A stretch of 39,153 bases of DNA from a virus. The DNA lies in IMG/VR virus record IMGVR_UViG_3300033153_000778, positions 1 to 39,153 of that record, one strand, 5' to 3'. Below are positions 125-35,374 of this stretch, in pieces. The position numbers and the translations under genes are program-made. The first letter of the stretch is position 1. Every line of letters begins with the position of its first letter. The notes under the pieces were generated by a model. That model saw nothing but the letters and a program-made list of their open reading frames with translations. It was not told where the DNA came from and did no database searches.

Positions 125-137
125 TATCAACAACTTG
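125..137 (+). promoter_or_regulatory. IHF-like site 1
   Basis: TATCAA-CAAC-TTG matches the IHF core consensus WATCAA-N4-TTR at every defined base. It overlaps the -24 element of the first sigma-54-like promoter and ends about 38 bases before the second. IHF bending is a regular part of sigma-54 promoter architecture. A one-mismatch relative (TATCAG-TAAC-TTA) lies at 328-340. Confidence 0.45.
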
Positions 138-151
138 GCACGATAGTTGCT
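135..151 (+). promoter_or_regulatory. Sigma-54 promoter P1
   Basis: TTGGCACG-ATAG-TTGCT matches the RpoN consensus YTGGCACG-N4-TTGCW at all defined positions, with GG and GC 10 bases apart. Transcription would start near 162. The 20-base unit TTGGCACGATAGTTGCTACG (135-154) is repeated exactly at 175-194. Sigma-54 promoters need a AAA+ enhancer-binding activator, which is not recognisable in this window and may come from the host. Confidence 0.75.
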
Positions 152-158
152 ACGCGTA

Positions 159-170
159 CACACCCGTGTG
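159..170. promoter_or_regulatory. CACACCCGTGTG dyad
   Basis: The arms CACAC and GTGTG flank CC. The dyad lies between the two tandem sigma-54-like promoters, covering the predicted start of P1 and just upstream of the -24 box of P2. It is a candidate operator; the protein is unknown. Confidence 0.3.
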
Positions 171-174
171 ACCG

Positions 175-191
175 TTGGCACGATAGTTGCT
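175..191 (+). promoter_or_regulatory. Sigma-54 promoter P2
   Basis: This is an exact second copy of TTGGCACG-ATAG-TTGCT, 40 bases downstream of P1. Every consensus base and the GG-N10-GC spacing are kept. Start is predicted near 202. The predicted leader soon contains a hairpin (stem CGCCCA/TGGGCG, 258-277). The sequences around the two copies differ, so the element itself appears to be what is conserved. Confidence 0.75.
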
Positions 192-392
192 ACGTGTGCC
201 TGCGCCTGCGTGTCGCGTCAAAAGGCTCGCGGACATGGATGGCAGGTTAACAGATCGCGCCCATAGGTGCGTGGGCGACTATGCCTCGCGTGTAACGTGC
301 GCGTGTTGGACTCCATTTTCCCTTACTTATCAGTAACTTACAGCACTATTGTGCCATTGGTGGTCACTTGGCATGATTATTTTATCCTTACT

Positions 393-2384: not shown

Positions 2385-3275
2385 ATGAGTGTATGTTTCA
2401 GAATAACCTGTGCTGATGGAGTAACAGGTGGTAAGATAACACAAGGGTGTTGGGGTTCCTTCAAGAGTAACCTTCAGCAGTGGGCAGTTAATAATCTAAA
2501 GAAGGACTACGTTCCTGAGTATGATAGAGAGGTACGTAACTTTCGTGAATACCACGATCACCTTAGTCCTACGGATTTACAAGAGGGACTACTCACTAGA
2601 CTTGGTGCTGATGCAGAGGAGTATAAGAAGAGACGCCTTACGATGCAAGGTAGATCTTACAACACACCACTGGAGTCCTTAGCAACAGGCATAACACACA
2701 TCACCTTAGAGAACGTGACGTTTGACGTGATCTCTTACAACAATGCCTTTGATACCTTACTTGCTGAGTACCCTAAGCTATTCGAGGGTGTTGAGGTAGA
2801 CAAGGGTGCAAAGACTATTACATTCTCAATGGATCAACACTACGCTATACTGTACAATCAACTGCGTATATTAAAGTTGTTCTGTGAACAAGAGAGCAGC
2901 TCTGAACTATCAGTACTCAGGGATGCAGTAGCTAACCCAGAGTTATCCTTCTTGTTACTAGCTGTGTACCCTAATAATTATGTAAGGTTAGGGGATAGTG
3001 CTGTTATATATGCATCGGGTCTTGATATGGGTGCTATAAGCCGTATCATTGAAGAACGTGACTGGCTTACAAGTGAGGAGGATAGAGTTAACCCTAAGTT
3101 CAACGCACTAGCCCTTCAGACACTACATAAGCAAGAGGGTGGACGGTCATACGCTCAGGCTCTTACTCCTGTTGCTAATAAGGATAATTATATGTCAGAC
3201 GGTGGTTGCCTAAGAACCTTACCAAAGACATCCAAAGGTTTCATCAAGTACGTAAAGAAAGGGAGAGCAGCATGA
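2385..3275 (+). CDS. Unknown protein heading the amidoligase island, 296 aa
   Basis: I do not recognise a family. The protein is soluble and has no obvious Walker, metal-binding or membrane motifs. The first half is rich in charged helices (WAVNNLKKDYVPEYDREV, about residues 33-50); the middle looks mixed alpha/beta. AGGAG lies eight bases before the ATG. Its stop overlaps the start of the first amidoligase as ATGA, so it is translated with that enzyme and probably serves the same pathway, perhaps as substrate, carrier or partner. That role is inferred only from position. Confidence 0.8.
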   Translation: MSVCFRITCADGVTGGKITQGCWGSFKSNLQQWAVNNLKKDYVPEYDREVRNFREYHDHLSPTDLQEGLLTRLGADAEEYKKRRLTMQGRSYNTPLESLATGITHITLENVTFDVISYNNAFDTLLAEYPKLFEGVEVDKGAKTITFSMDQHYAILYNQLRILKLFCEQESSSELSVLRDAVANPELSFLLLAVYPNNYVRLGDSAVIYASGLDMGAISRIIEERDWLTSEEDRVNPKFNALALQTLHKQEGGRSYAQALTPVANKDNYMSDGGCLRTLPKTSKGFIKYVKKGRAA

Positions 3276-4066
3276 CCTTAGCCTTACTAACACCAGTAAA
3301 AGAAGTAACAGTAGGTGCAGACCCAGAGGTATTCTTTGTTACTAAAGAGAGACTGGTATACCCTGCATGTGGACTCATCGGGGGTACTAAGGAGAACCCT
3401 ATCCCAGTACGTAAGGGTGCACTACAAGAGGACAACGTGATGGCAGAGTTTAACATAGACCCATCGAGTGACGTTGAAGAGTTCATGGATAATATTACTA
3501 TTGTATATGAGGAGTTAAGTAGAAGAGCAGCAGTCAAGGGGTACAACATATCCCAACGGGCTAGTGCTAACTTCCCTATGTTCCTACTCCAAGAGCACAA
3601 GCAAGCACTAGAGTTTGGTTGTTTACCTGACTTCAATGCTTACACCTTGGAAGAGAACAGTACACCTGATGTTAACAGTACACTAAGGACATGTGCTGGA
3701 CACGTACACCTAGGGTTCAAGGCAACCACTGATAACTACATGAAGATGGCAGGTAAGGTAGTGGAGTACCTTGATTGGATAGTAGGACTGTGGACTGTGA
3801 CCAAAGACCCTGATACTGTTAGACGTGAGCGGTATGGAAAGGCAGGGGCATTCAGACCTAAAGAGTATGGGTTAGAGTATAGAGTACCATCTAACTTCTG
3901 GCTTAACAGTGAGTCCCTTAAGAGGACTATGTTTGAGCGTGTTAAGCTAGCGTATGGACTAGCAGCAGCTAACTCAGAGAAGCCTAGCTTTGACAGGGTA
4001 CAAGATGCTATCAATACACATGATGTTGCTGAGTGCAACAGATTACTAGGAGGGTACGTACTATGA
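3272..4066 (+). CDS. COOH-NH2 ligase type 2 (amidoligase)
   Basis: The family joins a carboxylate to an amine using ATP and has the glutamine-synthetase/glutamate-cysteine ligase fold; phage phiEco32 carries the type form. Seen here: GADPE (residues 15-19), an LQEDNVMAEFNI strand (51-62), GCLPDFNAYT (116-125), GHVHLG (143-148) and a G-LEYR segment (about 200-204). The acidic and histidine residues are the expected metal and ATP ligands. Start is at the ATGA overlap with the preceding stop, with GGGAG upstream; a longer frame from 3206 would run through that gene. The substrate is unknown. Confidence 0.85.
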   Translation: MTLALLTPVKEVTVGADPEVFFVTKERLVYPACGLIGGTKENPIPVRKGALQEDNVMAEFNIDPSSDVEEFMDNITIVYEELSRRAAVKGYNISQRASANFPMFLLQEHKQALEFGCLPDFNAYTLEENSTPDVNSTLRTCAGHVHLGFKATTDNYMKMAGKVVEYLDWIVGLWTVTKDPDTVRRERYGKAGAFRPKEYGLEYRVPSNFWLNSESLKRTMFERVKLAYGLAAANSEKPSFDRVQDAINTHDVAECNRLLGGYVL

Positions 4067-4773
4067 CAATACTAGAGTTTAATAAGGACGTGCGGTGGGA
4101 GGGCAGTGGATTCCGAGATGAGTATGGAGTTGAGATGTTGTCTGACCTCAATAGAGTATGGGAAGGGTGCTATGTCTCTATCTTAAATGAACAGTGGTAC
4201 GTAGAGGCACTCGGTACGATAGGTGGTGAGTTATGTATGAAGATCAACTGTCTTACCTCACAGAGGAGGAAGAGGAGAGCTGTGTCCTTCGACCATGTCA
4301 AGTTAGATAAGATACACCCACATTTAGGTTACTTTAATACTAAGACATCCAGTATATACCTGTCTAGAAAGATTAACAGACAGTGGAAGCAGGGCATACA
4401 CCCTAACACAGTGACAGCACACATACCATTCGGTGACCTCATATCTCGTACCTCTGGCATGAATATGTGGGCTGCGGTGGGGATGGAGTCTTACTATGAG
4501 GACGGATTGAGTGGGTTAAGTTGCGATGTAAACTTCTTTGATCCTACCTACCTATCGTATCAACAAGGGGTTAATAAGCTAACAGAGGGAGAGATGATAT
4601 CCGCAGCTCTTAGTAGAGACGTAGCCTTAGCACTACACCCCGCCAATGGAGAGGTACACGTCATGTACCATGAAGAACCTGTCGGTGCTGTTGATGTAAT
4701 TAATAATACTCTTATCCTAAGAGAGGGGTACGCTTGGATAAGAGAAACACTAGAGGAGGTAATAATATTATGA
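4063..4773 (+). CDS. Unknown protein between the two amidoligases, 236 aa
   Basis: No family is recognised. The first 70 residues contain an aromatic-rich beta segment and a basic run (SQRRKRRAVS), followed by a mixed domain with MWAAVGMESYY near residue 140. No membrane or metal-binding motif is seen. Both ends overlap their neighbours as ATGA, and AGGAGG precedes the start. Being locked between two amide-forming enzymes suggests a shared substrate or complex, though nothing in the sequence names its activity. Confidence 0.8.
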   Translation: MTILEFNKDVRWEGSGFRDEYGVEMLSDLNRVWEGCYVSILNEQWYVEALGTIGGELCMKINCLTSQRRKRRAVSFDHVKLDKIHPHLGYFNTKTSSIYLSRKINRQWKQGIHPNTVTAHIPFGDLISRTSGMNMWAAVGMESYYEDGLSGLSCDVNFFDPTYLSYQQGVNKLTEGEMISAALSRDVALALHPANGEVHVMYHEEPVGAVDVINNTLILREGYAWIRETLEEVIIL

Positions 4774-6053
4774 CTATAGTTAGTGAAACCTTTGGGCTAA
4801 CACCAGCAGCAGGCCCCCTGCTTAACGAGTCAAGCCCTGAACTCATAACAGATGACAAGGTGGGTGTTGAGGTAGAGTTAGAGGGGTTTGTGTCATCGAC
4901 ATCTTCCCTTCAGTCCCTCGTAGATAGAAGATGGAATGTAATAGAGGATGGGTCTCTCAGAAATAGAGGCAAGGAGTTTGTTTATGCTCAGCCTATGTTT
5001 GGGGAGGATGTAGTACAAAGTATAAGTAACTTAGGTGAGACCTTCTCTCGCATAGGGGAACAACCTATTGCTAGTGACAGATGCTCCGTTCACGTACACT
5101 TAGATGTAAGAGACCTTGAGTACTCTCAACTCCTATCTCTTACCCTTGTGTACCTACTATGTGAGCCTTACTTCTTTGCAGTAGGTGGTGCGGATAGGGT
5201 AGATAATATATATACAGTACCACTAGCCTTATCAAAGACTTACTTAACATCCCTTGGACAGGCTATGAAAAGAGTGAGGGAGGGTGCAGGTCTAGGTGGC
5301 CCAGCCCACTTGTTTAGATCCCATATAAATAACAGGGTTAAGTACAGTGCATTTAATGTAGCACCTATTATAACACAAGGAAGCATAGAGTTCAGACATC
5401 ACCGAGGGGAGTGGAGACGTAACCCTCTAATCAACTGGGTTAACATGGTGTTAGCTATGAAACGATACACTGTAAACCTTGGTGACCAAGCCATGACACC
5501 TGAGTTCATAGACTCTATTGTTAATGGTGGATATGAGGACTTCATAGATGAGGTGTTCGAAGGTGTAACTATACCACAGTTTGTAGATGGGTGGGATAAT
5601 GCAGCTCGTGTATCTAAGCGTGTGTCTAGTATCGCTACTAGCGGTATAGATGATAGTCCTCTACTCCCATTGCCTACGAATTCAAAGCAGAAGAGTAGGT
5701 TCATCCAAACTCAACACAAGGTAGGACTATCATCTATTAAAGGGTGGAAGGTATTCACTAGTAGGATGAAGGATAGGTACAGGGAGGTGGAAGAAATGGA
5801 AGAGGTAGGGTCGGTACAGTGGGGTTCTACCCCGTTACCTGATGGTCTTCAGGCTCTTATAGATGACGTACAGGTAGTACAATCAGCACCCCCCGTTAGA
5901 CCTCCATCTTCCAGCGGCTTTGCCTCAACCCAACGGGTAATGTATGGAGGTGGTGCTAGTAGTACGGAGTCTCTACTATCCCGAGTAAGGCAGAGTAACG
6001 CAGATAGAGACAGAGAGAGAAATGTATTTTTTACCACAACAGGAGGATCATAA
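4770..6053 (+). CDS. Amidoligase family enzyme (Amidoligase_2-like)
   Basis: This is a second ATP-dependent carboxylate-amine ligase of the glutamine-synthetase-like fold, from a different branch than the gene at 3272. Residues 32-38 (GVEVELE) carry the first acidic metal ligands. DGS (60-62) and KEF (68-70) follow, then SVHVHLD (106-112) and SIEFRHHRGEW (205-215). The last 130 residues are low-complexity, serine- and arginine-rich, and may be a flexible tail. Start 4770 is chosen for its ATGA overlap and the AGGAGG ten bases upstream. Such enzymes occur with amidotransferase and ATP-grasp genes in phages and bacteria. The substrate is unknown. Confidence 0.85.
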   Translation: MTIVSETFGLTPAAGPLLNESSPELITDDKVGVEVELEGFVSSTSSLQSLVDRRWNVIEDGSLRNRGKEFVYAQPMFGEDVVQSISNLGETFSRIGEQPIASDRCSVHVHLDVRDLEYSQLLSLTLVYLLCEPYFFAVGGADRVDNIYTVPLALSKTYLTSLGQAMKRVREGAGLGGPAHLFRSHINNRVKYSAFNVAPIITQGSIEFRHHRGEWRRNPLINWVNMVLAMKRYTVNLGDQAMTPEFIDSIVNGGYEDFIDEVFEGVTIPQFVDGWDNAARVSKRVSSIATSGIDDSPLLPLPTNSKQKSRFIQTQHKVGLSSIKGWKVFTSRMKDRYREVEEMEEVGSVQWGSTPLPDGLQALIDDVQVVQSAPPVRPPSSSGFASTQRVMYGGGASSTESLLSRVRQSNADRDRERNVFFTTTGGS

Positions 6054-6054
6054 T

Positions 6055-7542
6055 ATGTGCGGCATTGTTGGAATGATAGGATCGGGTATCGACTACGGTA
6101 TCAAGAAAGTATTTAAAGACCTACTTATTATTGACACTATAAGAGGGGGGGATAGCACTGGATTTATAGGGGTGGATGGAGATGACGTAGTGGTTGCAAA
6201 GAAAGCAACAGATGGGTACGCCTTCACTAACATGACCATGTTTACTAAGCAGATGTCTGCACTCTCTGGTGCTACCGCCTTGATAGGACACAACAGGTGG
6301 GCAACAAAGGGTAAGGTAACAGATGGTAACGCACACCCCTTCAAGAGTAAGGATACATATCTAGTACACAATGGCTCTCTTACAGGGACAGGGTGGTCTT
6401 ACGGAGCCAACTCATTACACAACGCATCACTCACAGATGTAGACAGTGAGGCTATATGTTTTAACATAGAGCATGAGGGTATCAAGGAGACAGTAGCTAA
6501 GCTCAATGGTGCCTTTGCACTGGTAGTATACAACGATACACTAGGTACCGTATCTTTCTTAAGGAATAAAGAACGACCGCTGTACTTCGCTGAGGTTAAG
6601 GGGCATGACATCCTCCTCTTTGCTAGTGAGGGTGGTATGCTTAGCCTAGTGTGTGAGAAACATGACATAGAACTACGTGAAGAACCTTGGTTGCTTAAGA
6701 CTAACATCATCATGTCCTTCAACGTCCATGAAAAGAAGGATGTATTAGGTACAAGGGATGTAGAGGAGGACATAGTTTACTATAAAGCCCCTGTCTACCA
6801 GTCATACAACAGGAGTGCCAACAGAAAAAAGTCAAGTGGGGTGACAACCTCCCCCCTCTCGTTGGAGCATCAGCGTGGGACTACTGGGGGTAGTGTTGTC
6901 CCTTTCACTAGACAAAAGAAAACCCTCACTGACTTCCAACTTAAGCAGGACGATAAGGTGTTCTTTGTACCTAAAACATTCAAACCCTTCGGTGCACAAA
7001 AGGGTGTCCTAGACCCTAAAGGTTCTATCACAGGTGTAGTATACGGAGGACTCTTAGATCCTAGAGAGATAGGTGAGGGTGTAGTGTACAGTAGAAGACG
7101 TAGCCTCTTTGCAGATATAAAGGGGAGCCTTGTTGAGGGGAACGTGAGTGGTGTATCCTACCCCTCTGGTATAGATAAGGGAGGTAGTGTCTGCCTCAGT
7201 GCAGGAGATAAACTAACGGATAAGCAAGCAGACGAGTACTGGAAAACCAAGAGCGACCTCGATGCACTTGAGGTAATGAAGGAGGAAGTAGATGATAGCA
7301 CCATCTTTCCCTTTCGTGGCCCCAATAATAATCCTATCAACGCTAGTAGGTTTACTCACCTCACCTTGGGGGGGTGCTGCATGTGCCTTGATCCTATCCC
7401 TGTTACTATAGCGTCATCCAAAGAGATATCATGGGTGTATGATGATCAACCTATGTGTAAATCTTGTACAGATTACTACACAGAGAGAGCAGAGGCAGAA
7501 GGGGAGAGCATGGATACATACCTAATGGGTGGTATACTATAA
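6055..7542 (+). CDS. Class II glutamine amidotransferase with C-terminal zinc-ribbon
   Basis: The N-terminal domain is an Ntn-hydrolase that releases ammonia from glutamine. Start 6055 is fixed because Met removal exposes Cys2 (MCGIVG), the family nucleophile, and AGGAGG lies just upstream. RGGDSTG (30-36), GHNRWATKG (78-86), NAHPF (92-96) and VHNGSL (104-109) are classic GlmS/PurF-type motifs. No synthase domain such as SIS or phosphoribosyltransferase follows. Instead there are about 250 residues I do not recognise, ending in two CxxC pairs (441/444 and 468/471), probably a zinc knuckle. Ammonia or a glutaminyl group may be passed to a neighbouring ligase. A distant paralogue role, such as transpeptidation, is possible. 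Confidence 0.9.
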   Translation: MCGIVGMIGSGIDYGIKKVFKDLLIIDTIRGGDSTGFIGVDGDDVVVAKKATDGYAFTNMTMFTKQMSALSGATALIGHNRWATKGKVTDGNAHPFKSKDTYLVHNGSLTGTGWSYGANSLHNASLTDVDSEAICFNIEHEGIKETVAKLNGAFALVVYNDTLGTVSFLRNKERPLYFAEVKGHDILLFASEGGMLSLVCEKHDIELREEPWLLKTNIIMSFNVHEKKDVLGTRDVEEDIVYYKAPVYQSYNRSANRKKSSGVTTSPLSLEHQRGTTGGSVVPFTRQKKTLTDFQLKQDDKVFFVPKTFKPFGAQKGVLDPKGSITGVVYGGLLDPREIGEGVVYSRRRSLFADIKGSLVEGNVSGVSYPSGIDKGGSVCLSAGDKLTDKQADEYWKTKSDLDALEVMKEEVDDSTIFPFRGPNNNPINASRFTHLTLGGCCMCLDPIPVTIASSKEISWVYDDQPMCKSCTDYYTERAEAEGESMDTYLMGGIL

Positions 7543-7563
7543 TTTAAGAGAGAGGAGAAGACT

Positions 7564-7902
7564 ATGTTAGTAGCAGTATATGGTAGCCTGAAGCAAGGCT
7601 ATGGTAACCACAGGTTACTGGAAACAAGTGAGTTCAAAGGGGGTACACAAACTAAACCAGAGTATACTATGTATAGTATGGGTGGGTTCCCTTGTATAAC
7701 AGAGGAAGGGGGTACATCTATAGAGATAGAGGTGTATGAGGTGGAAGACTCAGTGTTCAGTAGACTGGATCAACTAGAGGGATACCCTACCTTTTATAAT
7801 CGTAAGGAGATAGAGACAGAGTGGGGTGATGCATGGGTGTACTATATCAATGACCGTGCTTACCTTGGTAGACTTAACGTAGTGGAGAGTGGGAGGTGGT
7901 AG
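7564..7902 (+). CDS. Gamma-glutamylcyclotransferase-like protein
   Basis: A 112-residue single-domain protein of the GGCT/AIG2 fold, which turns gamma-glutamyl-amines into 5-oxoproline plus the free amine. The glycine-rich YGSLKQGYGN substrate loop (6-15) and the catalytic glutamate in LEGYP (Glu72) are both present, so activity is likely. GGAGAAG precedes the start. Next to two amidoligases it probably cuts or edits the same kind of gamma-amide bond that they form. The direction and true substrate are inference. Confidence 0.88.
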   Translation: MLVAVYGSLKQGYGNHRLLETSEFKGGTQTKPEYTMYSMGGFPCITEEGGTSIEIEVYEVEDSVFSRLDQLEGYPTFYNRKEIETEWGDAWVYYINDRAYLGRLNVVESGRW

Positions 7903-7903
7903 C

Positions 7904-8677
7904 ATGAGAGTCATGCCGTACAAGATAGGAAGTAAGAGTGCCAAGGCATTAGCTCAGGCACTGAGATGTAAGAGGATAAGGCACAACAGTACTACCTTTA
8001 CTAACAGACGTAATCATCTGATAGTTAACTGGGGTTTCAGTGGTATGTCTAGCTACCCACTATATAGGGTACTTAATAAGGTAGATGCTGTACTGTCTGC
8101 TAAGGATAAGAGACAGGCATTCCACATGTTCAGGGAACACAGTGTCATTACACCTGAGTGGACAACAGATAGGAGGGAAGCTCACGAGTGGTGGGCTGCC
8201 AATGAGACGGTGGTGTTAAGGCACAACCTCTATGGGCACAGTGGTGATGGGATTGAAGTAATGACAGGAGGTTCTTATGATGTTAGCCCTCTTGACTTCT
8301 TAATACCTAGCGCACCCCTCTATGTTAAGTACATAAAGAAACTATATGAGTACAGGTACCATGTGTTTGATGGGAGGGTAATAGACATACAACAGAAGAG
8401 GAAGAGACGTAGTGTTACAAATGATCAAGTCAACTATCAAGTTCGTAGTCATCATACTGGTTGGGTTTATTGTCGTGATGATGTACGTCATCGTAGTGGC
8501 CTTGAAGGTCTTGCTATCTCGGCTGTCTCAGCTCTCGGCTTGGACTTCGGAGCTGTAGATATAATATGGAATGAACGACAGCAACAGGGGTATGTACTGG
8601 AGGTTAACACAGCCTGTGGTTTGGAAGGAGAAACAGTAGAGATATATGCTAATGCTATAAGGGGGTATCGTGGATGA
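7904..8677 (+). CDS. ATP-grasp ligase
   Basis: ATP-grasp enzymes activate a carboxylate as acyl-phosphate and join it to an amine or thiol. The 257-residue protein keeps the signatures: a VVLRHNLYGHSGDG nucleotide loop near residue 105, a YVKYIKKLYEYRYHVF segment with the lysine and arginine that bind ATP, an ALGLDFGAVDI strand, and a VLEVNTACGLEG metal-binding loop near the end. An N-terminal domain of about 60 residues precedes them. The ATG at 7904 follows GGGAGG and lies one base after the preceding stop; a GTG at 7889 is less likely. It completes a set of three distinct carboxylate-amine ligases in the island. Confidence 0.85.
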   Translation: MRVMPYKIGSKSAKALAQALRCKRIRHNSTTFTNRRNHLIVNWGFSGMSSYPLYRVLNKVDAVLSAKDKRQAFHMFREHSVITPEWTTDRREAHEWWAANETVVLRHNLYGHSGDGIEVMTGGSYDVSPLDFLIPSAPLYVKYIKKLYEYRYHVFDGRVIDIQQKRKRRSVTNDQVNYQVRSHHTGWVYCRDDVRHRSGLEGLAISAVSALGLDFGAVDIIWNERQQQGYVLEVNTACGLEGETVEIYANAIRGYRG

Positions 8678-9206: not shown

Positions 9207-9408
9207 CTGTGACCAAGCGTTGAACCTTAAGGTCTCTTGTGAACGGTGGGCAAGGGAGTGTGATAGATTATCTGAGGAAAGTAAACGACAAGAGAGTCAC
9301 ATCAGTATAGTGGAAGCAGAGCTTAGGATAGCAGAAGAGTTGTTACAAAAAACACCCGTCTTTAATGAGTACCTGAACAGGTGTATCGCAGAGTGTGGAA
9401 GTGAGTAG
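9181..9408 (+). CDS. Small coiled-coil protein, 75 aa
   Basis: The ATG at 9181 is preferred over one at 9151 because a GAGGAGGAAGAGG purine run lies just before it. Residues about 25-60 form a strong heptad-like helix (SESHISIVEAELRIAEELL style), and early cysteines (CNC) may bind metal. It overlaps the start of the primase-helicase gene. Function unknown; a helper of the replisome is possible from position only. Confidence 0.65.
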   Translation: MSAKNEECNCDQALNLKVSCERWARECDRLSEESKRQESHISIVEAELRIAEELLQKTPVFNEYLNRCIAECGSE

Positions 9409-11116
9409 GTGTATATCCAAGGCTAGCTGCCCTGAGTGTGGTAGTGGCGATGGGGTACAAATCTTTGAGCAGCCTGATGGTAAGCGTGATGCCTACTGTT
9501 ATGCTTGTGACACTAAGTTTAATCAAGTGGATGCCCTGAATGTAGTGGCTAACACACGTAGTAGGGGGAGAGATAGCATTAGTAAACTAACAGTAGAAGA
9601 AGTAATGAAGTTCCAATCGAAAGACCTAAAGGACAGGCGGATACATCAGTCAACGCTTGATCACTTTGGTGTTAAGGTAGGACTCAACGGGGCAGATAGG
9701 GATAAGGTAGACCATCACTTCTACCCTGCTCATACTAAACAAGGGGAGTTAACAGGGTACAAGCAAAGGATTTGTGCCACTAAGGATTTCTATAAGGTAG
9801 GAGATACCAAGGGTTGTATACTCTTTGGACAGAGCCAGTGCCCTGCTAATAAGAAACTTTTTGTAACTGAGGGTGAGATAGATGCCATGGCTCTGTATCA
9901 GGTACTCCTTGATCGTATGCAAACTAAGTTCAAAGAGATGGGGTACCTACCTAGTGTAGTAGGTGTAACAAATGGAGCACAAGGTGCAGCTAACCAGCTA
10001 CTAGATAACATGGACTTCCTTAAGAAGTTCCAAGAGATTATCATAGTCTTTGACAACGATGAGCCGGGGCGTACCAGTGCTGAGAAGGTAGCTAAATCCT
10101 TAGACCATAAGGTATTACTTGCTACCCTACCCTTGAAGGATGCAGGGGAGATGTTACAAGAGGGTAAGGAAGCTGAGTTATACGGTGCAGTACTACGTGA
10201 AGCACAGCCCTATGAACCCGATGGTATACTCAATGCCTCTACTGCATGGGATAGATACAAAGAACGTAAGAGTGTAGAGTGCCACCCGTACCCATCACAG
10301 TTCACTGAGTTGAACAGTAAGACATATGGATGGAGATTCGGTAGTGTGGTCACGGTCACTAGTGGTAGTGGTATGGGTAAGACCTCATTCATGAGGGAAC
10401 TAGAGCATGATATACTTACTACTACTGAAGAGAAGGTAGCTATCATAGCACTAGAGGAAGACATAGGGGATAGCATCGAAGGGTTGATGGCTATTGAACT
10501 TAACAAACGTATCAGTTTACCTGATGTGGAGGTCAGTGATGAGGAAGAAGAAGCAGCATTTAAGAAGCTCTTTGAAGGAGAACGTGTTGAGATGTATGAC
10601 CATTTCGGGGGTATGGATGACACTGATTTGTTTAGCCGCATTAAGTACTTCAATACGTACCTCGGATGTAGGGTTGTGGTTCTTGATCATCTCTCTATTG
10701 TTATTAGTGAGGCTGCGGATCAGGGAGATGAGAGAAGAAGGATAGATGCAGTGATGACCAAGCTAGCTAAGATAGCTAAGTCCTTAGACATAGTTATATT
10801 CTTAGTAGTACATCTACGTAAGGCACCTCAAGGCAAGAGCTTTGAAGAGGGACACGTCCCTACTAGTGATGACCTACGTGGTAGTGGTAGTATTAAGCAG
10901 CTATCGTGGGATGTCATAGCCCTATCTAGGAACCAACAGGAAGAGGACAGTATCAAAAGGAATACTAGTGGTATACATGTACTCAAGTGTCGCTTCACTG
11001 GACGGACAGGGCCTGCTGGGTTCACGTTCTTTGATGAGAACACAGGTAGGATGATGGAAGCTAGTGACCCTAGCGTAGACGTAGATGAGTTTGAAGATGA
11101 AGGAGGAGAATTCTAA
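9395..11116 (+). CDS. Replicative primase-helicase (T7 gp4-like)
   Basis: This single chain makes RNA primers and unwinds DNA at the fork. The N-terminal zinc domain has Cys12, Cys15, Cys35 and Cys38. TOPRIM primase residues are EGEIDAM (160-165) and FDNDEPG (219-225). The RecA-like helicase has Walker A SGSGMGKT (323-330), Walker B VVVLD ending at Asp431, and a DDLRGSGSIKQ loop for DNA contact. Length (573) is near T7 gp4 (566). There is no ATG: GTG at 9395 or 9401 must be used, and the choice is open. It partners the split DNA polymerase downstream. Confidence 0.95.
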   Translation: MEVSRCISKASCPECGSGDGVQIFEQPDGKRDAYCYACDTKFNQVDALNVVANTRSRGRDSISKLTVEEVMKFQSKDLKDRRIHQSTLDHFGVKVGLNGADRDKVDHHFYPAHTKQGELTGYKQRICATKDFYKVGDTKGCILFGQSQCPANKKLFVTEGEIDAMALYQVLLDRMQTKFKEMGYLPSVVGVTNGAQGAANQLLDNMDFLKKFQEIIIVFDNDEPGRTSAEKVAKSLDHKVLLATLPLKDAGEMLQEGKEAELYGAVLREAQPYEPDGILNASTAWDRYKERKSVECHPYPSQFTELNSKTYGWRFGSVVTVTSGSGMGKTSFMRELEHDILTTTEEKVAIIALEEDIGDSIEGLMAIELNKRISLPDVEVSDEEEEAAFKKLFEGERVEMYDHFGGMDDTDLFSRIKYFNTYLGCRVVVLDHLSIVISEAADQGDERRRIDAVMTKLAKIAKSLDIVIFLVVHLRKAPQGKSFEEGHVPTSDDLRGSGSIKQLSWDVIALSRNQQEEDSIKRNTSGIHVLKCRFTGRTGPAGFTFFDENTGRMMEASDPSVDVDEFEDEGGEF

Positions 11117-12021: not shown

Positions 12022-12204
12022 ATGTATAGATATGATCCTGATGTTTACTATAACTCACCCTATATGACTAGAGAGGATGAAGGTGAATGGTGCAGGTACA
12101 CCGATGCTATGGATGAAATAACAGACCTAACAGAAATGAATAGGGAACTTGAGCGTGAATTATCTCAGGTTAAACAAGAGTTATTGGAACAGTACAATGG
12201 TTGA
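12022..12204 (+). CDS. Small acidic coiled-coil protein, 60 aa
   Basis: GAGGAGG stands eight bases before the ATG. The first 25 residues are rich in tyrosine and acidic residues; the last 30 form a heptad-like helix (EMNRELERELSQVKQELLEQ). No family is recognised. Its end overlaps the exonuclease gene start by eight bases, so it may be co-made with the polymerase subunits. Confidence 0.65.
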   Translation: MYRYDPDVYYNSPYMTREDEGEWCRYTDAMDEITDLTEMNRELERELSQVKQELLEQYNG

Positions 12205-12679
12205 TGTACTTATCTTTGATACGGAGGCTAATGGGTTACTACATGACGCAACAACGATGCACTGTGCAGTTACAAAGGGTAGCGAGGGGGTTACTAAGTA
12301 TTACCCTAGCGATATTAGGAGCTTCATGGATACTCTTAGTAATCTCCCTACTGATACTATCCTTGTCTGCCACAATCTTATAGGGTATGACCTACCCTTA
12401 ATGGAGAGACTATATGGATACAGACACGAAGGAAGAGTACTTGATACTCTTGTCTTCTCACGTCTACTTAACCCAGAAAGAAGTGGACGACATTCTCTTG
12501 GAGCATGGGGAGAACGACTTGGGCGAGGTAAGGTCGAGCATAACGATTGGGAATTCTTTAGTGAGGACATGTTATTTAGATGCTCTGAAGATGTAGAGAT
12601 AAATTACCTAGTATATAAATACTTAATGAAGGAGGGAGGTATAGATGAAGAGGAACTGGCTCAACTCCCTAGCTATTGA
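12197..12679 (+). CDS. DNA polymerase proofreading exonuclease domain as a separate protein
   Basis: This is the DnaQ-type 3'-5' exonuclease that normally forms the N-terminus of T7-like family A polymerases. The catalytic acids are present: Asp8 and Glu10 (FDTEANGL), Asp65 (NLIGYD) and Asp132 (CSED). At 160 residues it equals the isolated domain. The ATG at 12197 is preferred to one at 12149 because homology begins there. The stop lies inside the polymerase gene, 35 bases after that gene's ATG. It probably binds the polymerase subunit to proofread. Confidence 0.88.
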   Translation: MVDVLIFDTEANGLLHDATTMHCAVTKGSEGVTKYYPSDIRSFMDTLSNLPTDTILVCHNLIGYDLPLMERLYGYRHEGRVLDTLVFSRLLNPERSGRHSLGAWGERLGRGKVEHNDWEFFSEDMLFRCSEDVEINYLVYKYLMKEGGIDEEELAQLPSY

Positions 12680-13976
12680 GCACAGGGAAGCAAGGGTAAT
12701 AGAGGATCAAGCTAGCTATGGATGGCTCTTTGACACACAGAAGTGTAAGAGATACATATACTTCTTACGTGATAGGATGATAAGGGTAGACACTAAGCTA
12801 AGACCAGAGCTACCTAAGCGTGTGAGGCAGTACGGTGTCTCGGTAATGGAACCATTCAAGATGGATGGGCTACCGAAGAAGATGGTAGAGGACTGGGGTA
12901 TCACAGTCGAAGCCCCCTTCACCCGTATATACTTTGAAGATATGAATCTAGGTAGTGACAAGCAGTTAAAGGAGTACCTACTTAGTCTAGGTTGGAAGCC
13001 TACGATGTGGAACTATAGGAAGAAGGATACTATCAATGGTAAGAAGGGCGACCGCACAGGCCCTAAGCTCTCTGAAGAAGGGAAGCTTTGTCCTAACCTT
13101 GATAAGCTAGGTGGTAGCCTCGGGTCATCCCTCGTACTGTACCTCAAGTGTAAGCACCGCAAGGGTTTACTCGAAGGGTTACTCTCTCTCGTACGAGATG
13201 ATGGACGTATCAGTGCTGAAGCTAATACGATAGGGGCTGCCACACATAGGATGACACACAAGGGTATCGTTAACATACCGGGAGCCGGAGCATTCTATGG
13301 TACACCTATTAGAGGATTGTTTATATCTAAGAAGGGGTACAGTATAGTAGGGTGTGATAGCAAGGGTAACCAGATACGTATGCTATGTCACTACATGGGG
13401 GATGATGAGTACACTAAGCAGGTACTCACTGGAGATATACACACAGTACACCAAGAAGCAGCAGGTTTAAGCACCCGACCACAAGCCAAGACATTCTTCT
13501 ATGGATTTATATTTGGTAGTGGTGATGCTAAGACAGGTAAGATTGTTGGGGGTACTGCTAAGGATGGGGCTAGGTTAAAGGCAAGCTTCTTGTCTAAGTT
13601 ACCTAGGTTAAAATCACTAGTCAACAGGGTGAAGAAGAAGGTGGACACCGATGGGTACATACACGGATTAGACGGACGTAAGGTATATGTAGGGAGTAGC
13701 CATAAGGCATTAAATTATCTACTACAATCCGCTGAAGCTATCTATATGAAGTACGCACAGTGTTTACTATGGAAATGGATGAGGGTAGAGAAGCTAGATG
13801 CACACTATGTAGCTACTATCCATGATGAATTTCAATTAGAAGTGAGGGACGATCATGTACCAAGAGTAAAAGAGTTAGCACTAAAGGCAATGCTTAAGGC
13901 AGGGACACACTTAGGTATCTCATTACCCATGGAGGGAGACGTTAAGGTAGGTAAATCATGGGCAGGGACACACTAA
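12645..13976 (+). CDS. Family A DNA polymerase, polymerase domain
   Basis: A 443-residue chain with the palm, fingers and thumb of a T7 gp5-like polymerase but no exonuclease domain. Motif A is VGCDSKGNQIRML with the metal-binding Asp238. Motif B is RPQAKTFFYGFIFG with Arg278, Lys282 and Tyr286. Motif C is ATIHDEF with Asp394. In motif A the usual glutamate (Glu480 in T7, Glu710 in E. coli Pol I) is Gln243. A strong AGGAGGGAGG site stands eight bases before the ATG, inside the exonuclease gene, so separate translation is intended. Tyr286 predicts easy dideoxynucleotide use, as in T7. Confidence 0.93.
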   Translation: MKRNWLNSLAIEHREARVIEDQASYGWLFDTQKCKRYIYFLRDRMIRVDTKLRPELPKRVRQYGVSVMEPFKMDGLPKKMVEDWGITVEAPFTRIYFEDMNLGSDKQLKEYLLSLGWKPTMWNYRKKDTINGKKGDRTGPKLSEEGKLCPNLDKLGGSLGSSLVLYLKCKHRKGLLEGLLSLVRDDGRISAEANTIGAATHRMTHKGIVNIPGAGAFYGTPIRGLFISKKGYSIVGCDSKGNQIRMLCHYMGDDEYTKQVLTGDIHTVHQEAAGLSTRPQAKTFFYGFIFGSGDAKTGKIVGGTAKDGARLKASFLSKLPRLKSLVNRVKKKVDTDGYIHGLDGRKVYVGSSHKALNYLLQSAEAIYMKYAQCLLWKWMRVEKLDAHYVATIHDEFQLEVRDDHVPRVKELALKAMLKAGTHLGISLPMEGDVKVGKSWAGTH

Positions 13977-32714: not shown

Positions 32715-33127
32715 TATTGATACTCCTCACTAGAAACTTCATTAACGATAGCCTCTACGTCTACCTCATCTGTAACATGGAAGGTTAACCATAAGGTCTC
32801 CTCATGTACAGCGATAGCTCTCTTGGTGTTAGGCTCAGTGATAAAGAAGTAAGGGCCTTGTACCCTCTCTTTAGTACCATCTGGTTTAGATATAGTAACA
32901 TCTCCACTTACTATAACGCTAATGTGTTGTGTTTTATGAACCCTACTTGTTAGTACTGTATCCTTAGGTAGGGTAATAACCCTCATGTAAGCCCCCTCAG
33001 CGAAGATGTGCTGTAGTGGTAGCTCAACCTGTGGCATCTGCTTCAGCTCATCTTCTAAGGCTTTTATATTCTCCTTATCGGGTATAGCTAACCCTTGATA
33101 GAACTTCTCTGCTAGCTCAGTACTCAT
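32714..33127 (-). CDS. Cupin-fold protein in the tail cluster
   Basis: The 137-residue product shows a cupin barrel: RVITLPKDTVLTSRVHKTQHISVIVSGDVTI holds a His pair, and GPYFFITEPNTKR and ALWLTFHV-like strands follow. Cupins bind small ligands or metals; some are structural. It occupies the T7 gene 13 position between nozzle and gp14. A virion assembly role is possible. Confidence 0.7.
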   Translation of the reverse strand: MSTELAEKFYQGLAIPDKENIKALEDELKQMPQVELPLQHIFAEGAYMRVITLPKDTVLTSRVHKTQHISVIVSGDVTISKPDGTKERVQGPYFFITEPNTKRAIAVHEETLWLTFHVTDEVDVEAIVNEVSSEEYQ

Positions 33128-34377
33128 CAGTATTGTCCATCCATTGTAATAGGTAAGGTAAGACCTATGAGTCTCATATCTTTCCCAGCTTCAGTATCAT
33201 ACCGTAAGCCTAGTGCCTTCCCGTTACCACGTATCTTAATCCTAGTAACCACAACGTCAGACATAGCACTAAAGGAACCATCATCTTCTGCTAGGGGGTC
33301 TCTGAATCTATAAGCTTGTCTCTGTCTACCTACTTTACTATTACCTACTACTGAGTTCCATCCCCACTGTGGAGTAAGGAGTGCACTAGATGGGTATGTG
33401 TATATAGGTGTACCATCGCCATCTACACCTGAGACTGTCTGTTCAGTAAACTCAAAGTAGTTAGTAACGTAAGGGGCTGCCTTATCAAACTGTGGGTTAT
33501 CTAATGTCAGTGCTGCTAACTCTAGGTGACCCTCTATGGGAGAGGCTCCAAAGTCTACAAAATCTGCATCGTTAAACTCTGCTACACTATATAACGGTGT
33601 TACTCCGTCATCATTGTACGTAAGGAACTTAGTACTATTTGCTGTATTAGATGCTTGAGAGAAGAAAGGGAACGCTAACCTAGCTGTAGCTGTAAGGGCT
33701 ACGTTCTCTGTGTCAAAGTAGTGTGGATACCAAGCACCACCTTTAAACCTAAGGTTCAATGAGTGTTGTAGTTTATTAACTGTACCGTAGTAAAAGCTAT
33801 ACAGCTTCTCTTTATTATCATAGAGAGATACTGAGTTCTGTACCTCAGCCAGAGGTATGTCATTATAGTAACTATCAATAGACCCCTCTGTTATATTAGT
33901 AGCTACTACCCTTCTTGATTCTTGGGTAGCACCTACTTGGTAGATACCATCGTTAGCTGCATAGATAACTGTATCATCTACATCTATTACTGATCTCTTA
34001 GATACACAGCCTATCTTAGTAACTCTGGATACTACGTAGGAGATAGGGGCAAAGCCCTCTGACCCACCAGAGATAGCCCATACACCATTGTCTGCTACGA
34101 CTAGGAGTGCAGATGTAAGAGGTATCAGCTTTAATACTTTACCTAGTTCAGATATCTTAACTGTTCCACCGTCACTGTCGATTAAACTATTGATCTCTTC
34201 GGCAGTAGGGTCAGCCTCTTGATAGCACTTACCTGCTCTGTTTATATCTGTTAGTACCTGTGAGTAGAATAAGGTAGTACTCCATCGGGTACTTTGTACC
34301 CCTGCATACCACACTCTTCCAAAAGCAAAGGCTACTTCCTCAGGTCTGTTGTCTGTTGTCTCTATTGTTATAGCCAT
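33127..34377 (-). CDS. Tail nozzle protein, C-terminal part (T7 gp12-like)
   Basis: A 416-residue beta-rich protein. Its opening, RPEEVAFAFGRVWYAGVQSTRW, followed by TLFYSQVL, matches the beta-propeller part of T7-like tail tubular protein B. The N-terminal half is the separate gene just upstream, whose stop ends one base before this ATG. Together they total 747 residues, near T7 gp12 (794). No strong ribosome site precedes it, so it probably relies on coupling. Confidence 0.78.
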   Translation of the reverse strand: MAITIETTDNRPEEVAFAFGRVWYAGVQSTRWSTTLFYSQVLTDINRAGKCYQEADPTAEEINSLIDSDGGTVKISELGKVLKLIPLTSALLVVADNGVWAISGGSEGFAPISYVVSRVTKIGCVSKRSVIDVDDTVIYAANDGIYQVGATQESRRVVATNITEGSIDSYYNDIPLAEVQNSVSLYDNKEKLYSFYYGTVNKLQHSLNLRFKGGAWYPHYFDTENVALTATARLAFPFFSQASNTANSTKFLTYNDDGVTPLYSVAEFNDADFVDFGASPIEGHLELAALTLDNPQFDKAAPYVTNYFEFTEQTVSGVDGDGTPIYTYPSSALLTPQWGWNSVVGNSKVGRQRQAYRFRDPLAEDDGSFSAMSDVVVTRIKIRGNGKALGLRYDTEAGKDMRLIGLTLPITMDGQY

Positions 34378-34378
34378 A

Positions 34379-35374
34379 TTAAGGTAGCCACTCTGGGTCT
34401 AGGGGTTCTTTCCACCATATAGGATCTACAGTGTCACTAAATGTCTCTGACGTACCTGCTGTTACTGCGCCACCGTTGGCTGCCCAGTACCCACCACTTG
34501 CATCTACAGTTCCATTACGTAGCCCTTCATAGTCTATATAGAAAGGGTTAATAACAAAGTGTCCTTTAGGTGCTGGAGTATTTCCTAGTGTAAGGTCAAG
34601 TAAGTAGTCTGCATCGTAGATAAGGTTACCATCTCCATCATCTACTACACCTAGTAGTGCTATGTCAGCATTGCTAGGGTACGCGCTGTTTGTTGTATTA
34701 AACTGTGCAATAGGATCTACAAAGGAACCTGCTGCTACTATACGTCTAGTCTGTGCCCATCCTTGGTTGTTCAGGTTATAGTCATGCTCCTGTGCGTTAG
34801 TAGCCGGGCGTTCATCTACCTCTAATGAGTCATCAATACCAGTAAGATCTCTAATAGATAAGCCTACTACTGTGCCAGATACAGTGCTTGTGTCTGGGTC
34901 ATACGCTAGGTAGAAGGGGGTAATCTCTCTGCCTACTACAAATAACTTACCCTCTCCGCCAGCCATAGAGACTGGAGCTGTTTCAACTGTAGAGAATGCA
35001 GGTGCTACCATAGTATCTAGGTCAAAAGTAAACTGTTTAATACCTGCTGCTACACTAGTGGCTCCATCTTCAAAGAAGAATAGGGTTGCCCCTATCTGGA
35101 ATACGTGTAGGTTTAAGTCACCATCACCATTCACTGAGTCCCACTTGGTGTACGCTGTAGCATTAGTATCAGTAACATCTTCTGTAAGGGAAAAGAATGA
35201 AGACCCTACTTCTTTATTAATACCTAACCTACGTTGACGCACAGAGCCGTCATCATTAAAGGTGAAGTTTAACTCAGACACAGTACTGCCCTCAATAGGA
35301 GTTAGCTTAGATTGCTCTGTAACTAATCCTTTTGAAGGTGATAGTAACTGCTTTATTCCAGAAGCTCTTGGCAT
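34379..35374 (-). CDS. Tail nozzle protein, N-terminal part (T7 gp12-like)
   Basis: A 331-residue protein starting with a KGLVTEQSKLTPIEGSTVSELNFTFNDDG segment (read in parts), the usual beginning of T7-like nozzle proteins, with RQRRLG following. It ends DPEWLP just before the C-terminal gene begins, in a different frame. Probably forms the nozzle ring with that product. Confidence 0.78.
   Translation of the reverse strand: MPRASGIKQLLSPSKGLVTEQSKLTPIEGSTVSELNFTFNDDGSVRQRRLGINKEVGSSFFSLTEDVTDTNATAYTKWDSVNGDGDLNLHVFQIGATLFFFEDGATSVAAGIKQFTFDLDTMVAPAFSTVETAPVSMAGGEGKLFVVGREITPFYLAYDPDTSTVSGTVVGLSIRDLTGIDDSLEVDERPATNAQEHDYNLNNQGWAQTRRIVAAGSFVDPIAQFNTTNSAYPSNADIALLGVVDDGDGNLIYDADYLLDLTLGNTPAPKGHFVINPFYIDYEGLRNGTVDASGGYWAANGGAVTAGTSETFSDTVDPIWWKEPLDPEWLP

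Follow-up and report, generated by a model that had tools for sequence, protein, structure and literature searches.

Based on the sequence, positions 90-533 of the IMG/VR virus record IMGVR_UViG_3300033153_000778 likely constitute a cluster of sites for the host sigma-54 (RpoN) holoenzyme, which would serve as promoters of the early/replication operon. This record (39,153 bp, analyzed in its entirety and hereafter termed the window) is an incomplete contig that holds most of the genome of a Zobellviridae-like podophage. Its replication genes occupy the + strand from 1028 to 18.9 kb and its structural genes the - strand from 19.2 to 38.6 kb, which is the Zobellviridae layout, in which the replication and structural arms converge and the control region is divergent. 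The major capsid protein is 29-46% identical to its homologues, with coverage of at least 80% in 115 of 116 records, and nearly all of the capsid-matching records with a classification belong to Zobellviridae; no terminase was found among the window proteins scanned. Two products are divided over neighboring genes: DNA polymerase A over overlapping genes at 12149-12679 (exonuclease part) and 12645-13976 (polymerase part), and a tail appendage protein (phrog_8094) over two adjoining genes at 33127-35374, a split also seen in the locus L003. The contig begins within the leader and lacks the left flank of the control region. The leader (1-1027) is devoid of ORFs of 60 aa or more and spans about 1 kb because the first early gene, ORF1 (1028-1537, + strand; 169 aa, phrog_1448, function not assigned), starts at 1028. 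It gave no BLASTN match to phage records, Rfam and tRNA searches likewise returned no match, and no close relatives were found using ORF1 as a marker.

This leader contains every strong sigma-54 site in the window. The original prediction held that it contains two identical, consensus-perfect sigma-54 promoters without a comparable match elsewhere. The 20-mer TTGGCACGATAGTTGCTACG is indeed present on the + strand as two exact copies (135-154 and 175-194), with no other occurrence within 3 mismatches in the 39,153 bp, and two matches to it were obtained in 0/100 shuffles. Both copies fit TGGCACG-R-N3-TTGCW with the GG-N10-GC spacing, as had been claimed. The corresponding sites P1 (135-151) and P2 (175-191), each TTGGCACGATAGTTGCT, are 40 bp apart, and the starts predicted for them near 162 and 202 are consistent with the positions of the -12 GC. 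On a matrix set by hand from the published sigma-54 consensus this pair scores 19.3. The claim of uniqueness was wrong, as the same scan recovered two further sites close by, namely P3 (TTGGCATGGGGGTTGCA, 517-533, + strand; score 19.1, predicted start near 544) and P4 (GTGGCATGGAAATTGCA, 106-90, - strand; score 17.0, predicted start near 79), giving four sites rather than two. All four match TGGCAYR-N4-TTGCW exactly, with GG and GC 10 bp apart. P1-P3 are noncoding and directed to the operon at 1028, and thereby to the primase/helicase (9395-11116, + strand) that we used as a marker of the replication genes; P4 is the exception, facing away from the early genes, and counts against the early-promoter reading. 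No other site in the window scores 15 or more, all four fall within the first 540 bp, and the best score outside 1-540 is 13.9; hence, genes do not harbor the many equally good matches that had been named as potential counter-evidence. Comparison of the matrix scan with shuffled sequence, the check proposed along with the prediction, left the shuffles empty (0 sites in 15 window shuffles at a cut-off of 17, and 0 in 200 shuffles of 1-1027 at a cut-off of 15). These shuffles, the reversed-pattern and spacing controls and the conservation in relatives given below make it very improbable that the matches arose by chance and that early transcription proceeds from ordinary sigma-70 promoters, for which one may cite three weak sigma-70-like sites in 1-1100 that do not rise above shuffles. 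Sigma-70 promoters may act alongside the sigma-54 ones. The leader further contains, at 367-383, a good -24 half lacking the -12 GC (TTGGCATGATTATTTTA), perhaps a decayed sigma-54 site. It also carries three diverged copies of TTATCAACAACTT (114-139, 317-342 and 382-407), possibly a replication origin; two of these are one mismatch off a DnaA box (TTATCCACA), and one abuts the -24 element of P1.

Relatives of the window were recruited via its COOH.NH2 ligase (28 loci). This ligase belongs to a cluster of peptide-bond-forming and related enzymes at 3206-8677, which also encodes an amidoligase, an aminotransferase-like glutamine amidotransferase, a gamma-glutamyl cyclotransferase and a RimK-like ligase, and is common to PA11, ctOsX528 and Vibrio 1.208.B. 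The nearest relative found (locus L231 on contig G036, 47,973 bp) closes to a circle as assembled, because its ends overlap by about 91 bp. Its exact consensus sites are confined to one leader, the same leader as that of the window, at 47855, 47892 (identical to 10), 261 and 343 (- strand), i.e. five exact places in the record and four once the overlap is removed; the sites at 47855 and 47892 are 37 bp apart, and a weaker site occurs at 418. The first genes of G036 and of the cultured Vibrio phage VpV262 show no homology to ORF1 of the window; the first longer gene past the G036 leader (1383-1949) codes for a pentapeptide-repeat-like protein with ADLRNADL repeats. G037 carries two sites and G038 carries five, in both cases ahead of the same gene cluster; none were found in G041, G042 or any AT-rich relative (GC of 0.35 or less). 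Across G036-G042, which were picked by the ligase alone, the exact pattern occurs 13 times and its reversed counterpart once.

The predicted layout in the window has two promoters in tandem (135 and 175) followed by a distal one at 517, which is preceded by one imperfect and two perfect dyads. The perfect dyads, GTGAC-N7-GTCAC at 414-430 and 437-453, are centred about -122 and -99 from the P3 start and are candidate activator sites; the imperfect one, GTGCC-N7-GTCAC at 351-367, has one mismatch and is centred about -185. A blind search for repeated perfect dyads, with no motif specified beforehand, returned GTGAC-N7-GTCAC as the single repeated dyad of the window leader and as the identical single result in the G036 leader, where its centres lie -155 and -114 from the predicted start of the distal 418 (+) site. 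We found this dyad solely in these two genomes. The enhancers of many sigma-54 promoters are situated about 70-150 bp upstream (PMC3844500); hence, the dyads of the window and G036 stand at enhancer-like distances, and a sigma-54 activator would perhaps bind there. The dyad may alternatively be a repressor operator, and a search for it as a known activator site gave nothing usable. Profile searches, in which the positive controls were detected, revealed no sigma-54 activator domain (PF00158) in the window, G036-G038, VpV262, 1.235.O, PA11 or O4, and none above the cut-off in 30 array-bearing records; the RpoN DNA-binding domain (PF04552) was not found in the window, G036-G038 or VpV262. Sigma-70 region 2 (PF04542) is likewise not detectable in the window, with PA11, a member of the same family that encodes such a protein, as the positive control. 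RNA polymerase (PF00940) had no match in the window, a result to be read with the control genomes, which also lack a match, and with the incompleteness of the contig. As neither a phage RpoN nor an activator domain was detected in the genomes searched, the activator would be that of the host. Upon DNA entry the host E-sigma54 would form closed complexes on the leader, to be opened by a AAA+ enhancer-binding protein of the host that perhaps occupies the dyads; under this proposal early transcription would be tied to the state of that activator. Transcription itself, its timing, its dependence on RpoN and which activator acts are all inferred, and rpoN is assumed to be present in the host.

The sites are also concentrated in the control regions of named Zobellviridae. 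Among 21 of these, 12 of the 23 sites scoring at least 14.5 lie within the 5.3% of the sequence that forms the divergent control region (binomial p 4e-10); when the same sequences are read backwards 0/8 sites do so. The clearest case is VpV262, with 6 of its 7 sites between the terminal repeat (138 bp) and ORF1 (1034): those at 172, 213, 254 and 309 are on the + strand and those at 276 and 331 on the - strand. As in the window, sites in VpV262 and other family members are clustered in the leader before the early genes, and the pitch of 41 bp shared by three VpV262 sites compares with 40 bp in the window. A single perfect site is present in 1.235.O, and PA11, O4, GX1 and 1.208.B have one control-region site each. 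The number and strength of the sites vary, and the dyad was not found in these phages. The trait is patchy in Zobellviridae, since ICP2, Citroviruses, SIO1, ICBM1, CW02, RIO-1, PS32B.6 and others, about half of the named members tested, lack a control-region site; this patchiness counts against the proposal.

Beyond the named phages, tandem pairs conforming to the strict pattern were recovered from IMG/VR at 80 or more loci (of 117 new loci checked, among the 120 stretches listed), as against 4 loci with one extra spacer base in the full IMG/VR scan, so that the exact -24/-12 spacing is at least 20-fold enriched over the one-base-longer control. The exact pattern was counted 186 times in 30 records, against a single occurrence of the reversed pattern; this contrast is inflated by the fact that most of the records were picked for such sites. 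Base preferences at positions unused for selection follow the published mrNrY...R...TTGCW consensus. Whenever a replication gene could be located, the sites are directed to the replication genes in a computed ratio of 56:14 (55:14 without a double-counted G036 site), and the arrays in a ratio of 19:2. The position conserved in relatives, the spacing, the orientation and the base preferences thus support the original prediction that a phage control region contains sigma-54 promoters: it probably named the right kind of element and underestimated its breadth, which extends to VpV262 and many metagenomic phages. The identity of the two window 20-mers extends past the bases required by sigma-54, and origin-like repeats (TTATCAACAAC) likewise occur in its leader, as might be expected of sites for a phage protein, such as replication-initiator iterons or sites of a phage regulator, with an incidental likeness to sigma-54 promoters. 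We regard this as improbable because arrays keep GG-N10-GC constant while their four-base spacers vary freely, phages of differing GC content and array sequence obey the same rule, and spacings altered by one base hardly occur.

The arrays, which reach densities of 12 sites per kb, show same-strand spacing peaks at 26-29, 35-38, 39-41 and 45-46 bp and leave a gap at 31-34 bp; the lower bound of 25 is set by the search pattern. In the contig G021 most sites are on the early-gene strand, several of them immediately ahead of an early gene. In G015 many small genes are surrounded by sites that switch from strand to strand, and between 13500 and 26000 (L335) several copies of a sigma-54 cassette (+, 46 bp, +, 77 bp, -) are interspersed with small genes. 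Strand alternation of this kind suits better a role as a sponge or brake, in which sigma-54 or its holoenzyme is bound mainly in closed complexes that cannot be opened and either titrate host sigma-54 or delay transcription until a signal arrives, and for this reason we retain that role as a rival explanation. Packed arrays elsewhere, alternating strands at 19-25 bp, are also too dense for all sites to be independent promoters at once, and a phage activator was not found. The sponge or brake role is nonetheless unlikely in view of the orientation bias to replication genes, the dyads at the right distance for enhancers, the presence of just four sites in the window and the single sites immediately ahead of early genes in G021. 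We accordingly favor promoters, and consider it probable that many environmental phages, comprising part of Zobellviridae and distant others, use sigma-54 arrays as early control regions, with infection licensed by host enhancer-binding proteins; the packed arrays, with same-strand pitches near 27, 37, 41 and 46 bp and often alternating strands, would then be an undescribed control architecture. The notion that such arrays are an ordinary feature of bacterial chromosomes was rejected, the triple-site pattern being found in only 9 genome contigs, of which L220, L227 and L228 have phage-type genes nearby and L221, L225 and L226 look bacterial. Near-identical tandem repeats, each with a sigma-54-like site and apparently non-phage, are present in L226 (Gracilibacillus, 7711-7879; pitch 50-51 bp) and L221 (Devosia, 906-1020; pitch 49 bp).

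The window shares with bacterial sigma-54 promoters (-24/-12, TGGCAC-N5-TTGC) the consensus, the spacing and the presence of enhancer-like dyads ahead of the distal site, but its sites are clustered on both strands of a phage leader and appear placed to drive a replication operon. Phage T7 has tandem strong host-polymerase promoters, A1-A3, near its genome end ahead of the early genes. The cluster in the window is similarly tandem and similarly located; however, T7 relies on sigma-70 promoters and then on its own polymerase, whereas the window has sigma-54 sites and no polymerase was found in this incomplete contig. The likeness to phiEco32-type phages would lie in the reliance of a phage, apparently without its own RNA polymerase, on the choice of sigma factor; these phages use a phage-encoded sigma factor, whereas no such gene was detected in the window and host sigma-54 would serve. 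In our searches of the open literature we found no report of phages using sigma-54 promoters. Salmonella rpoN mutants are phage-resistant through indirect effects (PMC8744999), of the kind that follow when loss of rpoN deprives a cell of flagella and restricts its glutamine, and for Pectobacterium phage Q19, of another phage group, there is a weak claim of a sigma-54-like protein (PMC7693777). Sigma-54 control has hardly ever been linked to phages, and similar clusters are present in the nearest complete relative, VpV262 and dozens of environmental phages. According to a paper on a Klebsiella member, Zobellviridae have no RNA polymerase of their own and their transcription "is regulated differently" (PMC9960094); for part of the family, the sites described here offer a concrete candidate answer. 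The start of infection would depend on an activator-dependent host polymerase, and hence on host physiology. If the array-bearing environmental phages behave alike, sigma-54 control of infection would be widespread and overlooked.
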